Shown: one piece after another, positions 12,856-31,147 of the stretch
Layout of the letters: each line of letters opens with the position of its first letter
How positions within the stretch are numbered: the stretch's first letter is position 1
Assembly: GCF_018709685.1 (NCBI RefSeq)
Contig: NZ_JABDHQ010000017.1
Coordinates: 1 to 45,950 of the forward strand
DNA from: Akkermansia muciniphila
GTDB lineage: Bacteria > Verrucomicrobiota > Verrucomicrobiia > Verrucomicrobiales > Akkermansiaceae
DNA length: 45,950 nucleotides
Direction of reading: 5' to 3'
Translations under genes and position numbers: made by a program
The notes under the pieces: model-generated
Databases searched by the model: none
What the model saw: only the letters and a program-made list of their open reading frames with translations
Told to the model about the DNA's origin: nothing

Positions 12856-15800
12856 TCAGAACGTCATCCGGTAGCCGATGCTGCCGTTGACGCTGCTGGC
12901 CCGGCTGCGGAAGTCCGCATTAACGTCCGCAAAGACGGAGCTTGTGTAACCCACCGGAATGGTGAGCCCCGCGCCCACTTGTAAGCCGGTGGCTCCTTCC
13001 CGGGAGCCGTTCACGCGGAAACCCGCTCCCGGCGCGCCCGCGGGCGTCAGCGCAGCCGCCGTCTTCCGGTCGCCCAGGTTCTGAACCACCTGTGCCCGCA
13101 GTTCGCCCATGCAGGCGCGGCCCGCCAGGTTGCTGGAGAGTTCCCCCCGCAGCCTGCCGCCCAGCCCCACGGTGCCGTAGGTGGATTCCATGTCGTCCAC
13201 GCTCATGCCCAGGCCGCCGGATTCCGTAAAGCCGTCCATGCGGCTCCTGTAGACGGAGGCGTTTGCCAGGGGCTGGAACACGGAGGTCTTGTTTTCGTTC
13301 AGGTACAGGTCATAGGTGCCTTCATAAAACGCGCCGTAGCTGCTGCCGCTGGTGCTGCCGTGCATGGTGTACAGGGCGCCGGGAACGCCCGCCGTGCGGT
13401 CCAGGGAGGCATCATTCCACCCGTAAGTGAGAATGACGTTGTGGGCCCAGCGGCCGGACTGGATGCGGAAGAACAGGTTGCCGTAATAGGAGTCCAGATC
13501 GCCGTTCGCCATGTAGGCGTCCAGGTCCCCGTAGCTGGCGGAGAAGGCCGCGCCCCACACGAAGCTGTCGCTGCAAGTGACGTCAAAGCCGAAGGTGCCG
13601 CCCCAGGTGTTGAGCTTGTAGCCTGATTCGTCCGTGCGGTCGTCCAGCTTGCGGTAGCCGCCTTCCCCTTCAATCCAGGCGTTGAAGCGGGGCAGGTCGT
13701 CATTGATGTACTGTGTGGAGGCTCCCATCTGGGTGAGACGGTTGCGCAGGTGCAGCACCTGGTCCTTCAGGGCTCCCTTCTGGGCGGAGTGCAGGGCGGT
13801 CACGCCGCTCCCCGCATAAGAGGAAAGGGCGGATTGGATGGTGCCCGCGTCTCCCAGGGCCTGGGCCGTTCCCACGGCGTTCAGGAATTCCAGCATGGCC
13901 GGGGTGATGTTTTCCGGGGAGGAGGTAACGGCCCACAGGCTGCCCGCCGCGGCTTTCTGGTTGTCCGTGGAGGCGTAGCCCTTCAGCGGGCTGTCCCCCA
14001 GTTTGGTGAAGTGGACCTGGAACAGCTTGCCGTCGCCGGAGACCAGCTTGTCGATACCGTAAACCAGGTTGGCGAAGCCCGCATAAGTCAGATTCACCAT
14101 GTCCGCGGTCCAGGTATCCCCGTCAGCCGTGACCAGGCCGTTTTCCGCATAAAGGGCGTTGACGGTGAATTCCGGCAGAATGGCCCAGTCCCCGGCGGTG
14201 CCGAGGCCGTAAATGCTGACATTGATGGACGGTTCCGCCCCGGTGATGCGGATGGAGCCGTTTTCCGCCTTCACGGAGGCCCAGGCGTTGTCCGCCGTGT
14301 GGGCCAGCGTTTCCGTATTCACGGTAATATCCAGGGTGGAGCCGGAAGCCAGGTCCGCCGCCACGCCGCCGTTATTGCCGGTCAGCACCAGCTGCACGGC
14401 CCTCTGGTTGGGATTGCCGCCCAGGTACAGCTTGCCGTTGGAGGCGACGGAAAGCGTATTGGCCGTGGTGTCGTTCAGCAGGGAGAGGTCCGCCGTGACG
14501 TCCGGATTGGCGGCGTCACGGGTATTGCTGCCCAGGGAGATGTCCCGGTAGGCCATGGAGCCGTCCGCGGCCAGGCCGCTGTCTCCCAGGACCAGGTGGC
14601 CTCCCGCCTGCGTATGGCTGACGTCCACATGGCCGTTCCCGGAGGAGAGGATGATCTGCGTGCCTTCCCCGCGGTGGGTGATGGAGCCTGTGCCGGTGAT
14701 GTCCCCCTTGAAGGAGTAGGTTTTGCCGTCGCCGGAGGCCAGTTCCAGATGGCCGTCCGCCCCCAGGTGGAGCGCGCCGCCCTCCCGGTCCTGGTGCAAC
14801 CCTTCCAGGGCAATCGTGGAGCCGTCCCGCAGGAGCAGGCTGCCGCCGCCCAGATGGAGCAGTACGTCTTCTCCCAGGTTGCTGTCCGCGCCCAGAATCA
14901 GGTTGCAGTTGTCCAGCTTCAAGGTTCCCGTGCCGGTGATGGCAGCGTTAAGCGTCAGGTCTGAAAGCGTGTCCCTGGTGATGGTGAGCAGGGCGCCCCC
15001 GTTCAGGTTGACCGTTCCGGAGCCCGTCAGGTCCGTAGCGGCCAGCGAGGCGGAATTCAGGGTCAGCGCGGCATCCTGTTCCACATTCAGCGCGCCGGAA
15101 ATGATGGAGCTCTGCGTCCGGTTTTGCAGCACCAGCTCCCCGGCCTGCACGTCCAGCGCGGAGGCGGTGACCCGGCCGTCAATGGTCAGCCTCTGGCTAC
15201 CGTCCTTGACAAGCTGTGCCGCCCCTTCAATGGAGCCTGCGTAAGCGGTATTGCCGGGTTTGTCCGGGTCTGCGGAGGTCTCATTCAGCAGCGTGATAAC
15301 CACGCCGCTGTCCGTCCCGGTATTCACCATGGCATCCGATTCCGTTCCCGCCAGGTAGCGGAGGGTGGTCTTCTTGTCTTCCGGTGCGGTTGCCCCGGAC
15401 AGGTTGATATTCAGCGTTCCGTTGTTGGTGACGCTGGGCGTTGCCCCCAGCGTGTCGGAGGAGGTGATGGTCTTGATGCCGCTTTTGTCAATAATCAGGG
15501 CGTCCAGCTGGCCGAAGGAGATAATCACCTGGCCGCCTTCCGTCCGGGTGATGTCCCACGCCATGCCGTTGTATTCGCTCAGCGTAATGTAGTTGGTATC
15601 CGCATGCAGCGTGCCGTTGGTGATGTGGAAGGCGTAATCCCCCGGAGCGGTGAGCAGGGCCACGGCATCCGCCGTCAGCGTCAGGGTCAGATTCCCCAGC
15701 GTCAGGCTGGAACCGGACGGGTCGTTGAACAGGATGGCTCCCGCGCCGTCCGCGCCCATGTTGGCGGCGGAAAGCCTTAACTGGGTATCCGCACCGGACA

Positions 15801-18678
15801 GGTCCGCATGGCCCGTCAGTCCGGAGATGGTTCCGGCGCCCGCTCCCATGTTGATGGAGTTCAGCTTGCTGCCGTCCAGGCCCCCCAGGTTGATGTTTCC
15901 GGTGATGCCGGAGACGGAAACGCTTTTGGCTCCCAGTCCCGCCGTGTTGGCAAGCGCCCCGGAGGAGATGGAGATGCTGCCGGATACGGCCTGCCCGGCC
16001 AGGTCCAGCGTTCCTCCCTCCACCCGGTAGGTTCCGGTTCCGGTGTCTGCGGATTTGAGGGTCAGGTTGTGCGAGGTGCGGATCGTGCCATTGTTGGTGA
16101 TGTCCAGCGTGGCCCCCTGGTCCCGGTTGAACCGGAGGGCGGAGCCTTCATCCACGGCCAGGGAGGTAACCGTATCGCCCAGGGCCAGGTCCAGCGCGAG
16201 GTCCGAATTTCCGGTGACCTGCACCTGGTCAAAGTTCTGGAGCGTTCCCAGGAAGCTGGCGGCGTAGTGGTCGAAGACGAGCTTCTTTTCCCCGTTCACC
16301 GTTCCGCCTCCCTTGCCGTCGATGGTGCCGGCGTATTTGTCAAACTTGTGTTCGGACCCGTCTCCGGTGGTGGCGGCAATATCCTTCAGGGTGATGATGG
16401 TGCCTCCGTTGATGGTGCCGCTGGCCTTGTTGCCGCTGCACAGGAGCGTCCATGCCCAGTTGTCTCCGTCAGCTTTCCCCAGGATGGCGTCCGTTCCGGT
16501 AATGGTCAGGCTGGTTCCCCCGGAAATGGTGCCCTGCGTCTTGTTCCCGGCGTAAATTTCATTCATGAACGTCCCGCCGTTGATGTAAAGGGAAGTGGAG
16601 CCGGAGATGGTCTTGGCCCCCGTGTAAAGGCCGCCGAAGATGCGGTGGGAGAACACGCCGTCATTGAACACCAGGGTGATGTCTCCGTCCACGGCGGTGG
16701 CGTAGGCTCCCGCCACGGAGGTGCGGTCCGCCTCCCCGTTGGTGAAGGAGGTGTCATAGGTTCCGGTGGAGGAGGAGAATTCCAGGTAAATGTTCCCGTG
16801 GACGGTACCGCCGTTGACGACGCCGAATACCGTGGATTTGCCGATGGCTCCTTCCGCCAGCCGCAGGTGGATGTCCCCGTACAGGTCGCCCGACGTGTGG
16901 CCGCCTATCCAGCCGTTATTGCTGCTGATGCCTTCCCCCAGCGTCACCCACAGGTCCTGGCGGCTGTCCGCGCTGCCGTAGGCTCCGTTGTTGGCGTAAA
17001 TAAATTTGGTGCTTCCCGTTCCCGTGATGACGGCAATGTTGGAGCTGGTGCCGTTGCGGACATTGTACGTGGCGTTGGCTCCGGCCGTGGCTATGGCGGT
17101 GGCGGCGGCATCCGTGGTCCATTCAATCATGCCCGGTCTAAGGAGGGATGGTTTTCCTCCGTTTACCAGGTAGAGGGCTTCCGGGCCGGTGATGCCGGCG
17201 GTGGCGGGAGCGTAGGAAAGGGAGCCGTCCAGCGCCAGATTGGAGAGGATGGCGTCCAGCGTGCCGGAATAACTGAAGGTGAGCCCGGAGGAGCTGGCTC
17301 CCGCCGCCGTCTGCGCTTCACCGATGAGGACGTCCCCCAGCCAGATGTAGTAGCCCGCGCCCAGGCCGTTGGCATTGTCTCCCGCCACGTAGGCCACGCG
17401 GATGGCATCCGCATTGGCGGACATGTCCTTGGAGTACAGGATGGTGCTTCCCCACTGAATGTACGCTTCATTAACGTTCAGCGTTCCGTTGCCCAGATTC
17501 AGGGAGAAATTGTTCGTGGTGTCCCAGCCGCCCGTGGCGCCGTTGCCCAGGCGCAGGGTGAAATCCACCGTGTACCCCCCGGACTGTCCCTGGGAGGCGC
17601 CCCAGTTATAGGTGAGGGTGCTGCTGCCGGACTTGTTGAAGTTGATCGTGTTGTTGGATATGGTGACGTTGTTGGCGGTAAAGCCTTTGGCCGCCAGCGT
17701 CTGCTGGGTGATGGCCGGGGCCTGCCCGAAGTTGACGCCCAGCTCGTGGGCGGCTTTCCTGGCCTGTCCGGCGGAACGCCCGGCGTAGCCCATGCCCTTG
17801 GCCATGTTGCCGGCCATCAGGAGGTCTCCCTGGGCATTGGGGTGCAGGCCGTCCGCCGTGGGATTGTTGAACATGGAGCGCACCCCGAAGAAGGGTTTGG
17901 AGCTGGCCACGTCAATGATGCCCGCATTAATATCAATCACCTTCACTCCGTTGGCGGCGTTTTTAGCGCCCCATTCTTTCAGGGATTCGTTGTACGTGGC
18001 TACGGCCTGGTGCGTTTCATCCATGTTCCCGTTGGCGTGCTGCGTCCAGCAGGGGACGGTCATCACGAAAATGTCCGCCTTGCTGTTGGCGGTGCGGATG
18101 GAGGAGACCATGGAATCCATATCGTTCAGCAAAAGGTAGGTCACTCCGTCCAGGCGCAGGTGCAGCGTACTGTTGTTATTGTCGGAAAGGAGGTCGTTGG
18201 TCCCGGCCAGCAGGAAAAACGTGTCCGGCGTGTTGGCCCCGGTGAGAGTCTGGCCCGTGTAGGTTCCCCCCTTGGTCTTTTCCGTGCTCAGGCCCAGCCA
18301 GTTCTTGAGGTTGGAACCGTTAAACCGCCCGTAGCTGCTGCCGTCCGCCCTGCCGGCTATTTCATAGGCGCGCGCGCTGGCCGCGGAGGAATGCAGATTC
18401 TGGAAAACCCTGCCGCCGTAGGAGGTTCCCGCAGCCACTCCGCCGCTATGGTTGCCGGTCATGATACCTTTTTCGGTATAGCTGATACCGTTATCCGCAA
18501 AAATTTTGTGCATGGCCCAGCGCCAGGACCCCCCGTTGACGCCATGGGTGATGGAATCCCCCACATACATGACGTTGCCCAGGTCCCCGTTGGAAACGGA
18601 GGCGGAGGCCACGGTGGTAAACAGGGCGCCGCAAGCCAGTAAAACGCACCTTAGAAAGAGAGGTAATCTTAAACGCAT
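12856..18678 (-). CDS. Giant SGNH-hydrolase autotransporter
   Basis: 1940 residues, by far the largest gene here. A signal peptide (about residues 1-26) is followed by a complete SGNH/GDSL hydrolase domain (about 30-295): block I G40-D-S-I-T with nucleophile Ser42, block III G159-T-N-D162, and block V D276-G-L-H279-P. These blocks are diagnostic of esterases or deacetylases. Residues about 330-500 look like a concanavalin-type beta-sandwich. About 520-1660 is a Gly/Ser/Thr/Asn-rich beta-helix passenger with many GTGTL/SGSTSL-type turns. The last roughly 270 residues are an autotransporter beta-barrel (FDVTCSDSFVWGAAFSASYG onward) ending in the outer-membrane signal YRMTF. Inference: an outer-membrane-displayed carbohydrate esterase, for example acting on O-acetylated mucin sugars, combined with an adhesin. 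Its start lies 15 bp from the inverted-site element at 18694-18874, which contains the likely promoter. Confidence 0.9.
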   Translation of the reverse strand: MRLRLPLFLRCVLLACGALFTTVASASVSNGDLGNVMYVGDSITHGVNGGSWRWAMHKIFADNGISYTEKGIMTGNHSGGVAAGTSYGGRVFQNLHSSAASARAYEIAGRADGSSYGRFNGSNLKNWLGLSTEKTKGGTYTGQTLTGANTPDTFFLLAGTNDLLSDNNNSTLHLRLDGVTYLLLNDMDSMVSSIRTANSKADIFVMTVPCWTQHANGNMDETHQAVATYNESLKEWGAKNAANGVKVIDINAGIIDVASSKPFFGVRSMFNNPTADGLHPNAQGDLLMAGNMAKGMGYAGRSAGQARKAAHELGVNFGQAPAITQQTLAAKGFTANNVTISNNTINFNKSGSSTLTYNWGASQGQSGGYTVDFTLRLGNGATGGWDTTNNFSLNLGNGTLNVNEAYIQWGSTILYSKDMSANADAIRVAYVAGDNANGLGAGYYIWLGDVLIGEAQTAAGASSSGLTFSYSGTLDAILSNLALDGSLSYAPATAGITGPEALYLVNGGKPSLLRPGMIEWTTDAAATAIATAGANATYNVRNGTSSNIAVITGTGSTKFIYANNGAYGSADSRQDLWVTLGEGISSNNGWIGGHTSGDLYGDIHLRLAEGAIGKSTVFGVVNGGTVHGNIYLEFSSSTGTYDTSFTNGEADRTSVAGAYATAVDGDITLVFNDGVFSHRIFGGLYTGAKTISGSTSLYINGGTFMNEIYAGNKTQGTISGGTSLTITGTDAILGKADGDNWAWTLLCSGNKASGTINGGTIITLKDIAATTGDGSEHKFDKYAGTIDGKGGGTVNGEKKLVFDHYAASFLGTLQNFDQVQVTGNSDLALDLALGDTVTSLAVDEGSALRFNRDQGATLDITNNGTIRTSHNLTLKSADTGTGTYRVEGGTLDLAGQAVSGSISISSGALANTAGLGAKSVSVSGITGNINLGGLDGSKLNSINMGAGAGTISGLTGHADLSGADTQLRLSAANMGADGAGAILFNDPSGSSLTLGNLTLTLTADAVALLTAPGDYAFHITNGTLHADTNYITLSEYNGMAWDITRTEGGQVIISFGQLDALIIDKSGIKTITSSDTLGATPSVTNNGTLNINLSGATAPEDKKTTLRYLAGTESDAMVNTGTDSGVVITLLNETSADPDKPGNTAYAGSIEGAAQLVKDGSQRLTIDGRVTASALDVQAGELVLQNRTQSSIISGALNVEQDAALTLNSASLAATDLTGSGTVNLNGGALLTITRDTLSDLTLNAAITGTGTLKLDNCNLILGADSNLGEDVLLHLGGGSLLLRDGSTIALEGLHQDREGGALHLGADGHLELASGDGKTYSFKGDITGTGSITHRGEGTQIILSSGNGHVDVSHTQAGGHLVLGDSGLAADGSMAYRDISLGSNTRDAANPDVTADLSLLNDTTANTLSVASNGKLYLGGNPNQRAVQLVLTGNNGGVAADLASGSTLDITVNTETLAHTADNAWASVKAENGSIRITGAEPSINVSIYGLGTAGDWAILPEFTVNALYAENGLVTADGDTWTADMVNLTYAGFANLVYGIDKLVSGDGKLFQVHFTKLGDSPLKGYASTDNQKAAAGSLWAVTSSPENITPAMLEFLNAVGTAQALGDAGTIQSALSSYAGSGVTALHSAQKGALKDQVLHLRNRLTQMGASTQYINDDLPRFNAWIEGEGGYRKLDDRTDESGYKLNTWGGTFGFDVTCSDSFVWGAAFSASYGDLDAYMANGDLDSYYGNLFFRIQSGRWAHNVILTYGWNDASLDRTAGVPGALYTMHGSTSGSSYGAFYEGTYDLYLNENKTSVFQPLANASVYRSRMDGFTESGGLGMSVDDMESTYGTVGLGGRLRGELSSNLAGRACMGELRAQVVQNLGDRKTAAALTPAGAPGAGFRVNGSREGATGLQVGAGLTIPVGYTSSVFADVNADFRSRASSVNGSIGYRMTF

Positions 18679-18693
18679 ATCCTAGGCAGTATG

Positions 18694-18874
18694 CGAATTA
18701 AGAATCCGCCCTCAACTCAAAATGTTGAATATTAGTATATTATAAATTTCAACCCATTGAAATTGAAACTGTTGGACTAGGTCTGGTCTTTTTAAAACTT
18801 GCTTTTTCCCCTGATTTTTGCAGGGCTGGGGCTTCACCCCTGCTTTCAGGAGTAAAGGGCGGATTCTTAATCCG
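18694..18874. repeat. Paired inverted-site element A (possible invertible promoter)
   Basis: The ends are CGAATTAAGAATCCG (18694-18708) and CGGATTCTTAATCCG (18860-18874), inverted relative to each other and exactly 151 bp apart. The inverted match extends inward to 19 bp with one mismatch (18694-18712 and 18856-18874), and then 4 of the next 6 positions also match. The interior is AT-rich on the autotransporter side, with a minus-strand TATAAT (18739-18744) and an 8-bp repeat AATTTCAA-CCCA-TTGAAATT (18745-18764). A GC-rich hairpin lies on the far side (18810-18850). The same geometry recurs at 30002-30182. Confidence 0.75.
18739..18744 (-). promoter_or_regulatory. Candidate -10 for the autotransporter
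   Basis: Read on the minus strand this is TATAAT, about 60 bp before the autotransporter ATG and inside element A. The -35 region is poor (TTCAAT at 17-bp spacing). If the element inverts, this box would point away from the gene. Confidence 0.4.
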
Positions 18875-27800: not shown

Positions 27801-29828
27801 TCATTCAGCCGTCACCGTGACGTCCAGCGGACGGTCGGAGACGGGGAATTGCAATTCATAAAAGCCGTTCCCCAGGTCTTTGACAGGGGTATTTCCCGCC
27901 TTGACGGCGCCTTTCCCGTGCCAGACGACCACCGGGCCGGATTCCTTCACGCGGAAACGCAGCGTGTCCGCCCCGTATTCCGGAGCGGCGTCCAGGGCGC
28001 ACGGGGAGAGGAACTTGTCACCCCTGCCGATGACGGCCCAGCCCCGGATGATGGGGGCCATGATGAACAGGCGGTCCTTGAAGCCCGTGAGCTCCACGTC
28101 CAGCTCCGGCTGTTCCTGGGTCAGGGCGCGGCCGCCTTCTGCGGAATAGGCCGCGATTCCTTCCGGGGGAAGGCTGGCATACGCCTCCGCCGCCTTGCCG
28201 TTCAGCAGGGCTGCGGCATTGTTGTAATCCGTCAGGGAAATCCTGCCCCGGACCGGTTCCGCCGGAGAGGGGTGCCTGAGGTTGTACAGGACTACGGCGG
28301 CGCTTTGGTCGGGCAGGGGGGCGATCACCCGGTAAAGGCGGTTCTCGTTCATGGCGTCCAGAAAGACGGAGTCCGGCAGGGGAACGGCGGGAGCCAGCGG
28401 GCGCAGCAGCAGGCCGTCAGACCACACCAGGGGCATGATATGTTCCGGGTTCAGCTTGTCCGCGGGGTCTGAAAGATAAACAGGACCGCCGGAAACGGCT
28501 TTGGAGACGGCCATGAGCCGCGCGCTGGTGGGGTCCGTGGAGTGGAACATGTCATGGTCCGGCCACGCGGTCTGCCCCAGCCAGAGCGTATTGGCATAAG
28601 ACTGGAGGATGTGGGACTTGCCCATGGCTTCATCCCCCAGCTTGTAGTCAATACTGCACCGGGTGACGGCGCTGTAGCGGGTATTCTGGATATTGACGGT
28701 GCCCTGCGCCATGCAGTTGACCAGGTTGAGCCCCATTTTCCGGCAGGCCTGCTCCAGGGCCTCCGAGCACTTGGTATTGTGGTGCACCGGGTTGTCCAGA
28801 CCGTCCGCGTGCTTCAGGTATTCCGCCTGAACGTCAATCTTCACGAAGTCGAACCCGGCGTCCTTGACGGACTGGAGGAACGGGCCGTAAAACGCCCCGG
28901 CTCCTCCGGGACCGTCACCGGGAAGGATTTTCCCCTTGGAGGTGGTGACCAGCCCGCGGGCCGTCTGGGCGTCCAGCCGGTGTTTGGGGTGGATGCCGTT
29001 CCAGAGGCCGTAGTAGCAGTGCCATAACCCCATCCACTTCAATTTGGGGCTCTTGTGCTTCATCAGTGGCGCCCATCCCTGGGGGAACTTGCCCTTGTTG
29101 GTCTGGAAGCTGATCAGTTTAAGGCCCTCCTGGCTCTGGAAGCCGTCGTCCACCAGGACCCACCGGACGGGAACGGGGGAGGCCTCCAGCTGGCTGGCCG
29201 TGTGTTCAAGCAGTTTGGAGGAGATATTCTTTTTATACTGCTCCCAGCTGCACCAGCCCAGGTATTTGAACGGTTCCGGGTAGGCCTTTTTTTCACGGGG
29301 GAAGGTTCTTCCCTTGATGAAGGGGAGGGAGAGGGCCTTGCTCCATGCGGCGGAACAGGCGCGGTAAATATCCTTGTCCACGGCAGTGACGGCCAGCACT
29401 GGCTGCGGCTTGACCGTGGAAGTTCCCAGCGTACCGTATTCCACCAGGAATTTGCCGTTTCCATCAAGCTTCAGCCACGCGAGGGAATCAGGAGTAGCGA
29501 CGGGGAGCACCGCCATGAAACGCCCGTCCTTCAGGTGGAACAGTGCAAACATGGCATGGTCCCCGGGCTTGGCGGTGCTGGGGTTCGGCTTGCTGTCCAG
29601 CAGGTTGCCGGGGTCCGTCTTGCCGAACCAGGGCAGAACCCGGTTGCCGTCTCCGGGCCAGCGGCCCCGGTCCGCTGAAAACCAGCAGAAGGACTGGTAG
29701 GGAGGGAGCGGAAGGGGACGTGCGGTTTTCCCCGGCAAAGGGGTAATGGAGGATATCTGGGTCTGGGCTGCGGCGGTCCAGGCGGTCAGGGCCGCCAGGA
29801 CAAGGGCCGGGAAGGTGAACGCTCTCAT
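27801..29828 (-). CDS. Secreted GH36-like alpha-galactosidase / raffinose synthase family protein
   Basis: 675 residues with a signal peptide (MRAFTFPALVLAALTAWTAAAQ). It belongs to the Sip1/raffinose-synthase branch related to GH36 alpha-galactosidases: YLGWCSWEQY, the substrate-binding RWVLVDDGFQSQ, the likely nucleophile Asp332 in GFDFVKIDVQAEYL, the likely acid/base Asp394 in TRCSIDYKLGDE, and AWPDHDMFHS with GPVYLSDPAD. Members act on alpha-galactosides by hydrolysis or galactosyl transfer. Because it is exported and sits among sulfatase and esterase genes, release of terminal alpha-galactose from host or dietary glycans is the likely role. The gene is divergent from the second PEP-CTERM gene; the 485-bp gap holds element B. 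Confidence 0.88.
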   Translation of the reverse strand: MRAFTFPALVLAALTAWTAAAQTQISSITPLPGKTARPLPLPPYQSFCWFSADRGRWPGDGNRVLPWFGKTDPGNLLDSKPNPSTAKPGDHAMFALFHLKDGRFMAVLPVATPDSLAWLKLDGNGKFLVEYGTLGTSTVKPQPVLAVTAVDKDIYRACSAAWSKALSLPFIKGRTFPREKKAYPEPFKYLGWCSWEQYKKNISSKLLEHTASQLEASPVPVRWVLVDDGFQSQEGLKLISFQTNKGKFPQGWAPLMKHKSPKLKWMGLWHCYYGLWNGIHPKHRLDAQTARGLVTTSKGKILPGDGPGGAGAFYGPFLQSVKDAGFDFVKIDVQAEYLKHADGLDNPVHHNTKCSEALEQACRKMGLNLVNCMAQGTVNIQNTRYSAVTRCSIDYKLGDEAMGKSHILQSYANTLWLGQTAWPDHDMFHSTDPTSARLMAVSKAVSGGPVYLSDPADKLNPEHIMPLVWSDGLLLRPLAPAVPLPDSVFLDAMNENRLYRVIAPLPDQSAAVVLYNLRHPSPAEPVRGRISLTDYNNAAALLNGKAAEAYASLPPEGIAAYSAEGGRALTQEQPELDVELTGFKDRLFIMAPIIRGWAVIGRGDKFLSPCALDAAPEYGADTLRFRVKESGPVVVWHGKGAVKAGNTPVKDLGNGFYELQFPVSDRPLDVTVTAE

Positions 29829-30001
29829 GGGATCATTATTTTAAGTTAGAGGGAGGACGGAGGGGCTCGCAGGGAGCCGTTAAAGAAGTGCGTGTCTCTG
29901 TTCTCAGGAAAAAAGACGTTGCGTTATGATGGCAGAGCATTTCCCGGAGACGAGCAAAAAATGATTTTTCCGTTCCGTTTCCCTCCTTTTTCCTGTGAAG
30001 A
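29829..30001. other. Upstream region of the GH36-like gene
   Basis: This is the left part of the 485-bp divergent intergenic region (29829-30313). I see no gene, only AT-rich stretches such as the one around 29956-29970 that could serve as the GH36-like gene's promoter. Element B and the PEP-CTERM promoter follow to the right. Confidence 0.4.
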
Positions 30002-30182
30002 CGGATTGTGAATCCGGGGTCAATTTAAAAAGAGATGAATCCCTGGTTTTCCAATGATTTCACCAGCCGGGAATAGTTCATGCGCCACTTCCGGTTTAAG
30101 TAAACATCCCGGGTTAATGAAAATAATAAGTTCCTGTTGAATATATTGCATCATTGATGAAATTTCACGGATTCACAATCCG
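30002..30182. repeat. Paired inverted-site element B (possible invertible DNA)
   Basis: The ends CGGATTGTGAATCCG (30002-30016) and CGGATTCACAATCCG (30168-30182) are perfect 15-bp inverted copies, exactly 151 bp apart as in element A. The central bases GTG and CAC are complementary within this pair but differ from those of element A. The interior is AT-rich towards the PEP-CTERM gene and has an imperfect hairpin near the far end (CTGGT...ACCAG, about 30052-30067). It lies between two divergent genes for exported proteins. Confidence 0.75.
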
Positions 30183-30275
30183 ATATAGAAATCCCCAAGG
30201 GGATAAGGTTTCATGCCTGGGTTTTTGATCGCAAAACGCTCCCGGTAACGGATTTGCGAAGCATGGAGGCAATAA

Positions 30276-30303
30276 TTGCAACCGTTGGCTCCCCCGTTAT
30301 AAT
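30276..30303 (+). promoter_or_regulatory. Promoter of the second PEP-CTERM gene
   Basis: TTGCAA (30276-30281) and a perfect TATAAT (30298-30303) are 16 bp apart. The predicted start is only a few bases before the ATG at 30314, so the mRNA would be nearly leaderless. A 6-bp inverted repeat CGCAAA/TTTGCG (30230-30258) lies just upstream and could be an operator. Confidence 0.65.
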
Positions 30304-30313
30304 TCCTGATATC

Positions 30314-31147
30314 ATGAAGAAAACTCTAATTATTGCCTGTTGCGCTCTGGCTGCCGTATCCGGTTTCAGCATGGCGGCAACCTATCAATGGACGGGCAAC
30401 GGTGACGGCTCCTCCTGGACGGACGCGGGCAACTGGTCGGAATCCGGGGTGCCTCCCACCACTCTTGGTGCGGGAAACAGCATCATCATTAACAGTGACG
30501 CCTCCATATCCACCGCCGGGGCCGGAAACTTGAATTACAAGGGCATTGACCAGCTTGTCCTGAAGGGTACGGGCACCCTCAGCAACAACACGGGCGGAGC
30601 CTTGATCCTGGGAAATGTGGAGATGGATAAATCCTTCACCCTGTCTTCCGGCAATACGCAGCTGTGGGGCAATCTGGCGATTGATTCCGTTATTAATTCC
30701 GGAGCCTTGGGTGGGGGATTGTCCGAGGGGTATGTGTGGGATTTCGGCCTGAACGGGCGCCTTGCGACGACGAGCCTTTGGATTAATGCAAACGGGGGTA
30801 CCATTCAGGCCGCCATTGATCCGTATACCACCACGGGCGCCTTTGGGACGGTGGTGCGTGAACTCCTGGGGCAGAACGCTTCATCCTCCTCGGGCGGCAA
30901 CGGCTTTGATACGGTGGACTATGTGGTCAGGGATGCCGAGGGGAATATCCTGACCCGTGCGGACGGTCCTTTGGAGGCCACTGCCGAGAATGTGGGGAAG
31001 TACTGGATTACCACCAATGGGGGAGCGTGGGCCAACGTGAAGATTCATTATATCACCGGGGCGGCTCCCGTTCCGGAACCTGCCGCGGCCGGCCTTTCCG
31101 CCGCCGGACTGTTGTTGGCCCTGCTGCGCCGCCGCCGTATGCGCTGA
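30314..31147 (+). CDS. PEP-CTERM sorting domain protein with beta-helix-like passenger
   Basis: 277 residues. The ATG at 30314 is chosen because it begins the signal peptide (MKKTLIIACCALAAVSGFSMA) and fits the promoter; a longer in-frame reading back to 30254 would include the promoter. The start of the mature part (TYQWTGNGDGSSWTDAGNWS) is a motif common at the N-terminus of autotransporter/PEP-CTERM beta-helix proteins. The C-terminus has the complete sorting signal VPEPAAAG, a hydrophobic helix and RRRRMR. It is probably processed by an exosortase outside the window and displayed at the surface. Monocistronic, with a perfect terminator. Confidence 0.87.
   Translation: MKKTLIIACCALAAVSGFSMAATYQWTGNGDGSSWTDAGNWSESGVPPTTLGAGNSIIINSDASISTAGAGNLNYKGIDQLVLKGTGTLSNNTGGALILGNVEMDKSFTLSSGNTQLWGNLAIDSVINSGALGGGLSEGYVWDFGLNGRLATTSLWINANGGTIQAAIDPYTTTGAFGTVVRELLGQNASSSSGGNGFDTVDYVVRDAEGNILTRADGPLEATAENVGKYWITTNGGAWANVKIHYITGAAPVPEPAAAGLSAAGLLLALLRRRRMR

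Follow-up and report, generated by a model that had tools for sequence, protein, structure and literature searches.

A putative promoter split by recombination sites at an invertible-type segment preceding a PEP-CTERM-like surface-protein gene of Akkermansia muciniphila

Does the intergenic DNA between a GH36-like gene and a putative surface-protein gene of Akkermansia muciniphila contain a segment that can be inverted, and what would its inversion switch? The window analysed here (the whole stretch of 45,950 nt) corresponds to contig C9 in a genome of 2.86 Mb. At positions 30002-30016 it carries the sequence CGGATT-GTG-AATCCG and at 30168-30182 the sequence CGGATT-CAC-AATCCG (no strand is assigned to either, or to the interior). 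As an earlier note on this DNA had reported, the two 15-mers are inverted and 100% complementary, with 151 nt (30017-30167) between them. Absent from that note was the observation that both 15-mers are themselves 6-3-6 palindromes, exactly matching the motif CGGATT-N3-AATCCG. The 3-nt core of the right site is the reverse complement of the left core. The element (30002-30182) is intergenic and lies ahead of the proposed target, a gene for a PEP-CTERM-like surface protein of 277 aa (30314-31147, plus strand); on its other side is the GH36-like gene (raffinose synthase family; PF05691, E 1.5e-33; 27801-29828, minus strand). The surface protein matches the PEP-CTERM model NF038129 weakly (E 8e-4, under the model cut-off), and its end, VPEPAAAG..LLLALLRRRR, has what we take to be a recognised PEP-CTERM pattern. 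An Rfam scan of positions 29700-30500 gave no match.

A sister element (18694-18874, no strand assigned) has the core pair AAG/CTT and a single arm mismatch in its left repeat. It does share the 151-nt interior length with the element at 30002-30182, and the short strings TGTTGAATAT and AAATTTCA are indeed present in both interiors. Its -35-like hexamer TTGAGG is directed left, toward an autotransporter gene (12856-18678), on whose side no -10 box was found in the standard place. A further copy of the site, with one mismatch (CGGATTCCAAATTCG), forms positions 1-15 of the window, i.e. the very start of the contig, and its partner is not in the window.

The exact motif CGGATT-N3-AATCCG occurs 56 times in the 2.86-Mb genome, compared with 0 occurrences of the same pattern read backwards. 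Of these sites, 52 are taken up by 31 pairs; of the remaining four, one is situated at a contig start, one is partnerless and two lie in stretches outside the reading. In all 31 assembled pairs the sites are inverted and their cores reverse-complementary, with 21 different cores represented and a single arm mismatch in one site of 10 pairs. Since 56 exact copies stand against none of the backward pattern, and since all 31 pairs are core-matched, the site family exceeds chance expectation. The pair listing of this genome was run without a core filter, and the two unmatched pairs in it each include the site with which contig C15 begins. Among the elements listed for three related genomes, candidate pairs with unmatched cores number 4/34 in G017, 3/14 in G013 and 0/16 in G004, and six of these seven are cross-pairings between neighbouring elements. 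Fourteen exact sites are without a partner when one mismatch is allowed: six of them gain a core-matched partner at 2-3 mismatches and eight have no partner up to 4 mismatches (one of the eight is the tRNA-Phe site discussed below). The matching of cores within each pair would be explained if, as we propose, identical cores are needed for recombination. The element at 30002-30182 is thus of the invertible-segment type and belongs to a genome-wide family, and its flanking genes are the GH36-like and PEP-CTERM-like ones that the earlier note had named, the latter assignment being weak.

One part of that note fared less well. It had treated the equal spacing of the two window elements as improbable by chance and conserved spacing as a signature, and had itself named broad spacing variation as refuting. 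The 31 periods span 148-408 nt, and 11 of them fall at 164-169; an equal spacing in the window is therefore unremarkable, even if a period of exactly 166 is confined to its two elements. The chance argument is accordingly weak, spacing differs within the family, and we reject an exact 166-nt period as its signature. Nor did the AT-rich side and the hairpin described in the note emerge as usable traits of the family.

The repeat CGGATT..AATCCG is already known as the Akkermansia inverton repeat of Jiang et al. 2019, as quoted in PMC13343947; Jiang et al. 2019 also report an Akkermansia promoter motif. According to the available passages, PMC13343947 demonstrates the cps1 inverton in both orientations and ties orientation to the capsule, and PMC11892184 assigns the repeat to inverton group 138 (32 of 39 invertons from A. 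muciniphila), lists PEP-CTERM genes among the regulatable neighbours and describes a trend of flipping near autotransporter genes. For A. muciniphila, inversion at repeats of this class is thus on record (PMC13343947, PMC11892184). Judged by its sequence, the element at 30002-30182 belongs to this known kind, with which it shares the repeat, the short intergenic segment before a surface gene and the PEP-CTERM neighbourhood. The passages available on the known invertons differ from the present description in having no promoter split across the repeat, no 3-nt core rule, no cassette replacement and no invertase; likewise, we found no account of a split promoter, a core rule or a recombinase in the literature covered on Akkermansia inversion and on split promoters, which includes few subscription papers. 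As far as this literature goes, a promoter divided in this way and a family of recombinases that carry repeats of their own, as read from these genomes, appear to be new.

The proposed architecture can be followed at the locus itself. A -35 box (TTGACC, 30018-30023, minus strand) points left in this assembly, with its TTGAC ending 2 nt from the left site, and a -10 box (TATAGA, 30184-30189, plus strand) is placed in the fixed right flank, 1 base outside the repeat. No complete promoter was found inside the segment 30002-30182, the -35 being inside and the -10 outside; a weak 9-of-12 promoter match is present in it on the minus strand. At the corresponding -10 place the left flank offers CTTCAC, which is no good -10. 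Inversion of the segment would form TTGACC-17-TATAGA ahead of the surface-protein gene, and transcription would then start, by our estimate, near position 30196. The same pair of genes in G017 has flanks that are 77-84% identical and encloses another cassette, of 258 nt with core GCT and without homology to the interior at 30017-30167; there too the -35 faces left and the right flank has TATTAG at the -10 place.

The arrangement recurs throughout the family. Read outward in this genome, TTGAC stops precisely 2 nt short of the repeat at 24 of 62 element ends (28 of 62 with at most one mismatch), compared with a mean of about 1 per position elsewhere for the same 62 ends. With at most one mismatch, and among listed elements with matched cores, the box is found at 24/60 ends in G017, 12/32 in G004 and 8/22 in G013. 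For the 109 distinct core-matched elements listed from five genomes (without near-duplicates or the repeat copy of one G013 region; those from G004, G017 and G051 representing a lower bound on the elements of these genomes), it is present at 88 of 218 ends, the background being 0.016, in a tally that includes orthologous loci, so that the ends are not independent. Exactly one end bears the -35 box in 86 of these elements and both ends in one; in the other 22 there is none in the expected place. In the fixed flank, the dinucleotide TA occupies outward position 2 at 74 of the 218 ends (background 0.064). Among the 86 elements with one -35, this box is located on the TA side in 21 and on the opposite side in 31, two have TA in both flanks and 32 have it in neither. 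Such a distribution, with the -35 at one end or the other and a single fixed -10, would be expected of an invertible segment. Conserved in the family are the 6-3-6 site, the matched core and a -35 box located 2 nt inward from one repeat. Between TTGACn and TAnnnn, the 15-nt site and a single base on each side of it add up to a 17-nt spacer, and the recombination site would accordingly be the centre of the spacer in a putative promoter whose -35 lies inside the segment and whose -10 lies outside it.

Taken as a whole, the explanation that we favour, with a probability of about 0.8, is that the element is an Akkermansia inverton with a promoter divided by the recombination site. From features read directly in the sequence (the sites, their matched cores, the -35 and -10 positions, their replication in other genomes and one exact inversion elsewhere), we infer promoter activity, strand exchange in the core and inversion at this locus, i.e. 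a segment probably capable of flipping. Such a segment would bear a single -35 (TTGAC), 2 nt in from one repeat; on the side of the target gene, the fixed flank would hold the -10 one base beyond the other repeat, and the 15-nt site plus its two neighbouring bases would make up a 17-nt spacer, giving a promoter of sigma-70 type. Strands would be exchanged within the TT-NNN-AA centre by a tyrosine recombinase, which would thereby invert the segment; with the -35 brought beside the flank bearing the -10 the gene would be ON, and otherwise OFF. The surface-protein gene at 30314 is hence predicted to be OFF from this promoter in this assembly and ON after a flip. If this is right, the ON/OFF state of some Akkermansia surface genes could be read from the sequence (one -35, one -10, orientation). 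It might also explain why motif 138-2, found in a search inside Akkermansia invertons, had a promoter signal under the authors' threshold in the available part of PMC11892184, half of the promoter being outside the segment. A comparable system is known from Bacteroides. There, the Mpi and Tsr systems comprise short invertible promoter segments at surface genes, with many loci per invertase; the segment encloses the complete promoter, and Mpi belongs to the serine recombinases. The Akkermansia family resembles them in its short, probably invertible promoter segments at surface genes, but its putative -10 is outside the segment and the genome is without a match to the serine recombinase model PF00239.

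The earlier note had named as refuting an interior that never appears inverted between strains. In 21 strong between-species comparisons (a tally of 25 minus four identical copies within G013; matched cores required) no flip was observed, the orientation being the same in all 21, and among the weaker comparisons ten have the same orientation and two short, weak matches the opposite one. Set against these is one exact flip within the related genome G042. The loci L303 and L310 of that genome agree at 55/55 bases on the left, in a stretch that reaches into the left site, and their right flanks of 272 nt are 96% identical; the 215 nt between their sites (CGGATT-TTG-AATCCG) are 98% identical on the opposite strand; they represent an exact inversion between two places of one genome. 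With orientation constant in 21 of 21 strong comparisons, flipping has to be a rare, biased or regulated event. In five strong pairs of the tally the two cores have changed in concert between species, most clearly in AGG of G004 versus AAG of G051, where the interiors are 95.7% identical.

The constant orientation would also suit an inverton that flipped in the past and is now locked, with the surface-protein gene driven by a static promoter. A promoter-like pair suited to this role, TTGCAA-16-TATAAT (30276-30303, plus strand), is situated directly before the start codon and could drive the gene without any switch. Yet both sites at 30002-30182 are perfect, and in G017 it is the -10 of the flank that has been kept and the TATAAT of the static pair that has not. 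Moreover, contig C15 of this assembly begins exactly at a site and the window itself starts at one, as if both orientations were present in the reads, although contigs also break for other reasons; in G051, contig C36 begins at a CAC site and contig C20 ends 47 nt past a GTG site. Such contig ends fit mixed orientations in the sequenced DNA, other causes being possible. We regard a locked segment as unlikely.

Two further explanations dispense with inversion altogether. Palindromic sites paired at a preferred distance could serve a dimeric regulator that loops the DNA while nothing flips. A regulator of this kind would have no need for the free core to be matched, as it is in every one of the 31 pairs, among which 21 different cores occur; the spacing ranges over 148-408 nt with no significant helical phasing (Rayleigh p 0.06 to 0.42), and the exact inversion in G042 speaks against it as well, making this the least probable of the readings considered. 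Very unlikely too is that the repeats are the termini of a small MITE-like transposable element, a notion favoured by related cassettes at several places of one genome, such as the 17 cassettes of G042 with their median identity of 0.79. The interiors within the genome studied here are mostly unrelated, however, the end sequences vary in core between elements, and the three core bases are inverted, whereas target duplications are direct repeats.

The interiors also show turnover. In 22 comparisons the flanks are homologous on both sides and interior homology is absent (two of the 22 are artefacts of neighbouring G013 elements, and not all are strictly one-to-one), and one cassette occurs at two places of the same genome (L021 and L042; 91-92% identity, same core). 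Cassettes seem to be exchanged as units. In G042, which has 88 exact sites, nearly all of the 17 cassettes examined (L303-L317) have the core TTG/CAA and interiors of 163-166 nt; from their sequences they appear to be a family multiplied in one genome. Across 72 elements, counted from the -35 end, a further conserved pattern extends over interior positions 12-41 (A/T at 12-18, AA at 25-26, TT at 32-33); it might be an UP element or a site for a protein.

Which enzyme might invert these segments? Serine recombinases (PF00239) have no match in this assembly, 10 of 14 controls being positive, and tyrosine recombinases (PF00589) have five (L059-L063). L061 and L059 have their best scores with XerC and XerD or with general Xer types. 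L060 (1051-2010) is a third Xer-like recombinase, under the XerC and XerD cut-offs; among 40 genomes it is at least 90% identical only in G004, G017 and G051, and 53% identical in G014 and G048. It is not favoured as the invertase, G042 (88 sites), G013 (22) and G015 (11) having only 28-41% matches. The family of L062 and L063 has 2-22 matches per genome across 40 Akkermansia genomes, and it is probably from this multi-copy family of tyrosine recombinases that the invertase comes. A 6-3-6 pair scoring at least 22 occurs within about 420 nt upstream of 28 of 47 distinct family genes, some of which had been picked for a nearby site (13 of the 20 taken from recombinase match lists); in 20 plain shuffles per locus the score never exceeded 21. 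The repeat arms differ between family members, and in three genes read by eye the start codon is 16-17 nt past the repeat. Recombinase genes following their own switch would differ from the general gut-invertase pattern given in the available part of PMC11892184.

L062 is rejected as sole invertase, because the site-rich G017 (65 sites) is without a close ortholog (best match 47%); G042 holds an ortholog (81%). Of the two, only L063 has close orthologs (91-94%) in G017, G051 and G004, all of them site-rich, and the scan found no 6-3-6 repeat upstream of L063. Beyond those three genomes and the present one, its best scores are in G015, G013 and G042, which have the most sites (11, 22 and 88); their proteins are only 44-47% identical to L063, and the tree gives no support for placing them with it in one clade. 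Protein score and number of exact sites (the tRNA-Phe site included, and kinship ignored by the statistics) are rank-correlated over 26 genomes at 0.60 (p 0.001) for L063, 0.32 (p 0.11) for L060 and 0.13 (p 0.54) for L062, with no significant correlation once the four close kin are removed. Over 35 genomes the values are 0.57 (p 0.0004), 0.34 (p 0.04) and 0.17 (p 0.32), respectively, and minus the four kin 0.38 (p 0.04), 0.05 and 0.00. By this association L063 is the likeliest invertase, at slightly under even odds. The analysis thus offers testable candidates for a role to which the available passages on Akkermansia invertons assign no enzyme.

These observations can be combined into a single, tentative scenario, which as a whole has perhaps a one-in-three chance of holding in all its parts. 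Many Akkermansia tyrosine recombinases would sit right behind their own invertible split-promoter segment, with one arm variant per lineage (CGGATT, AGGATT, CGGATA, CCCATT, CGTATT, ATGATT, CGAATT) and a free 3-nt core. L063, which has no repeat of its own, would have become a global invertase as its sites spread to some 30 loci of this genome in the form of exchangeable promoter cassettes, the core acting as a private address that keeps each site with its partner. With its anticodon-arm shape and a 7-nt overlap, the site may have originated as a target for an integrase directed to tRNA genes.

Attachment sites of tyrosine integrases occur in tRNA anticodon arms, and the shape CGGA-TTNNNAA-TCCG corresponds, as a resemblance only, to an anticodon stem with a 7-nt loop. 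In 84,980 species genomes TTGACNNCGGATTNNNAATCCGNTA was found in 46 stretches, 43 of them titled Akkermansia or Akkermansiaceae, with about two chance matches expected by estimate and records near the genome of the window possibly left out. The single site of many genomes is rejected as a conserved inverton, being the tRNA-Phe anticodon arm. In twelve genomes (L217, L257, L258, L260, L261, L262, L264, L265, L267, L268, L269 and L270) the site copy is this arm, CGGATTGAAAATCCG, and ARAGORN confirmed tRNA-Phe in all seven of the twelve that were run. No family recombinase was found beside tRNA-Phe at 12 loci of about 1.7-3 kb. The site-rich genomes G000, G004, G017 and G051 have the arm in the form GGGGATTGAAAATCCCC, which would avoid the recombinase. 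G013, with its 22 sites, retains the CGGATT form of the tRNA-Phe arm.
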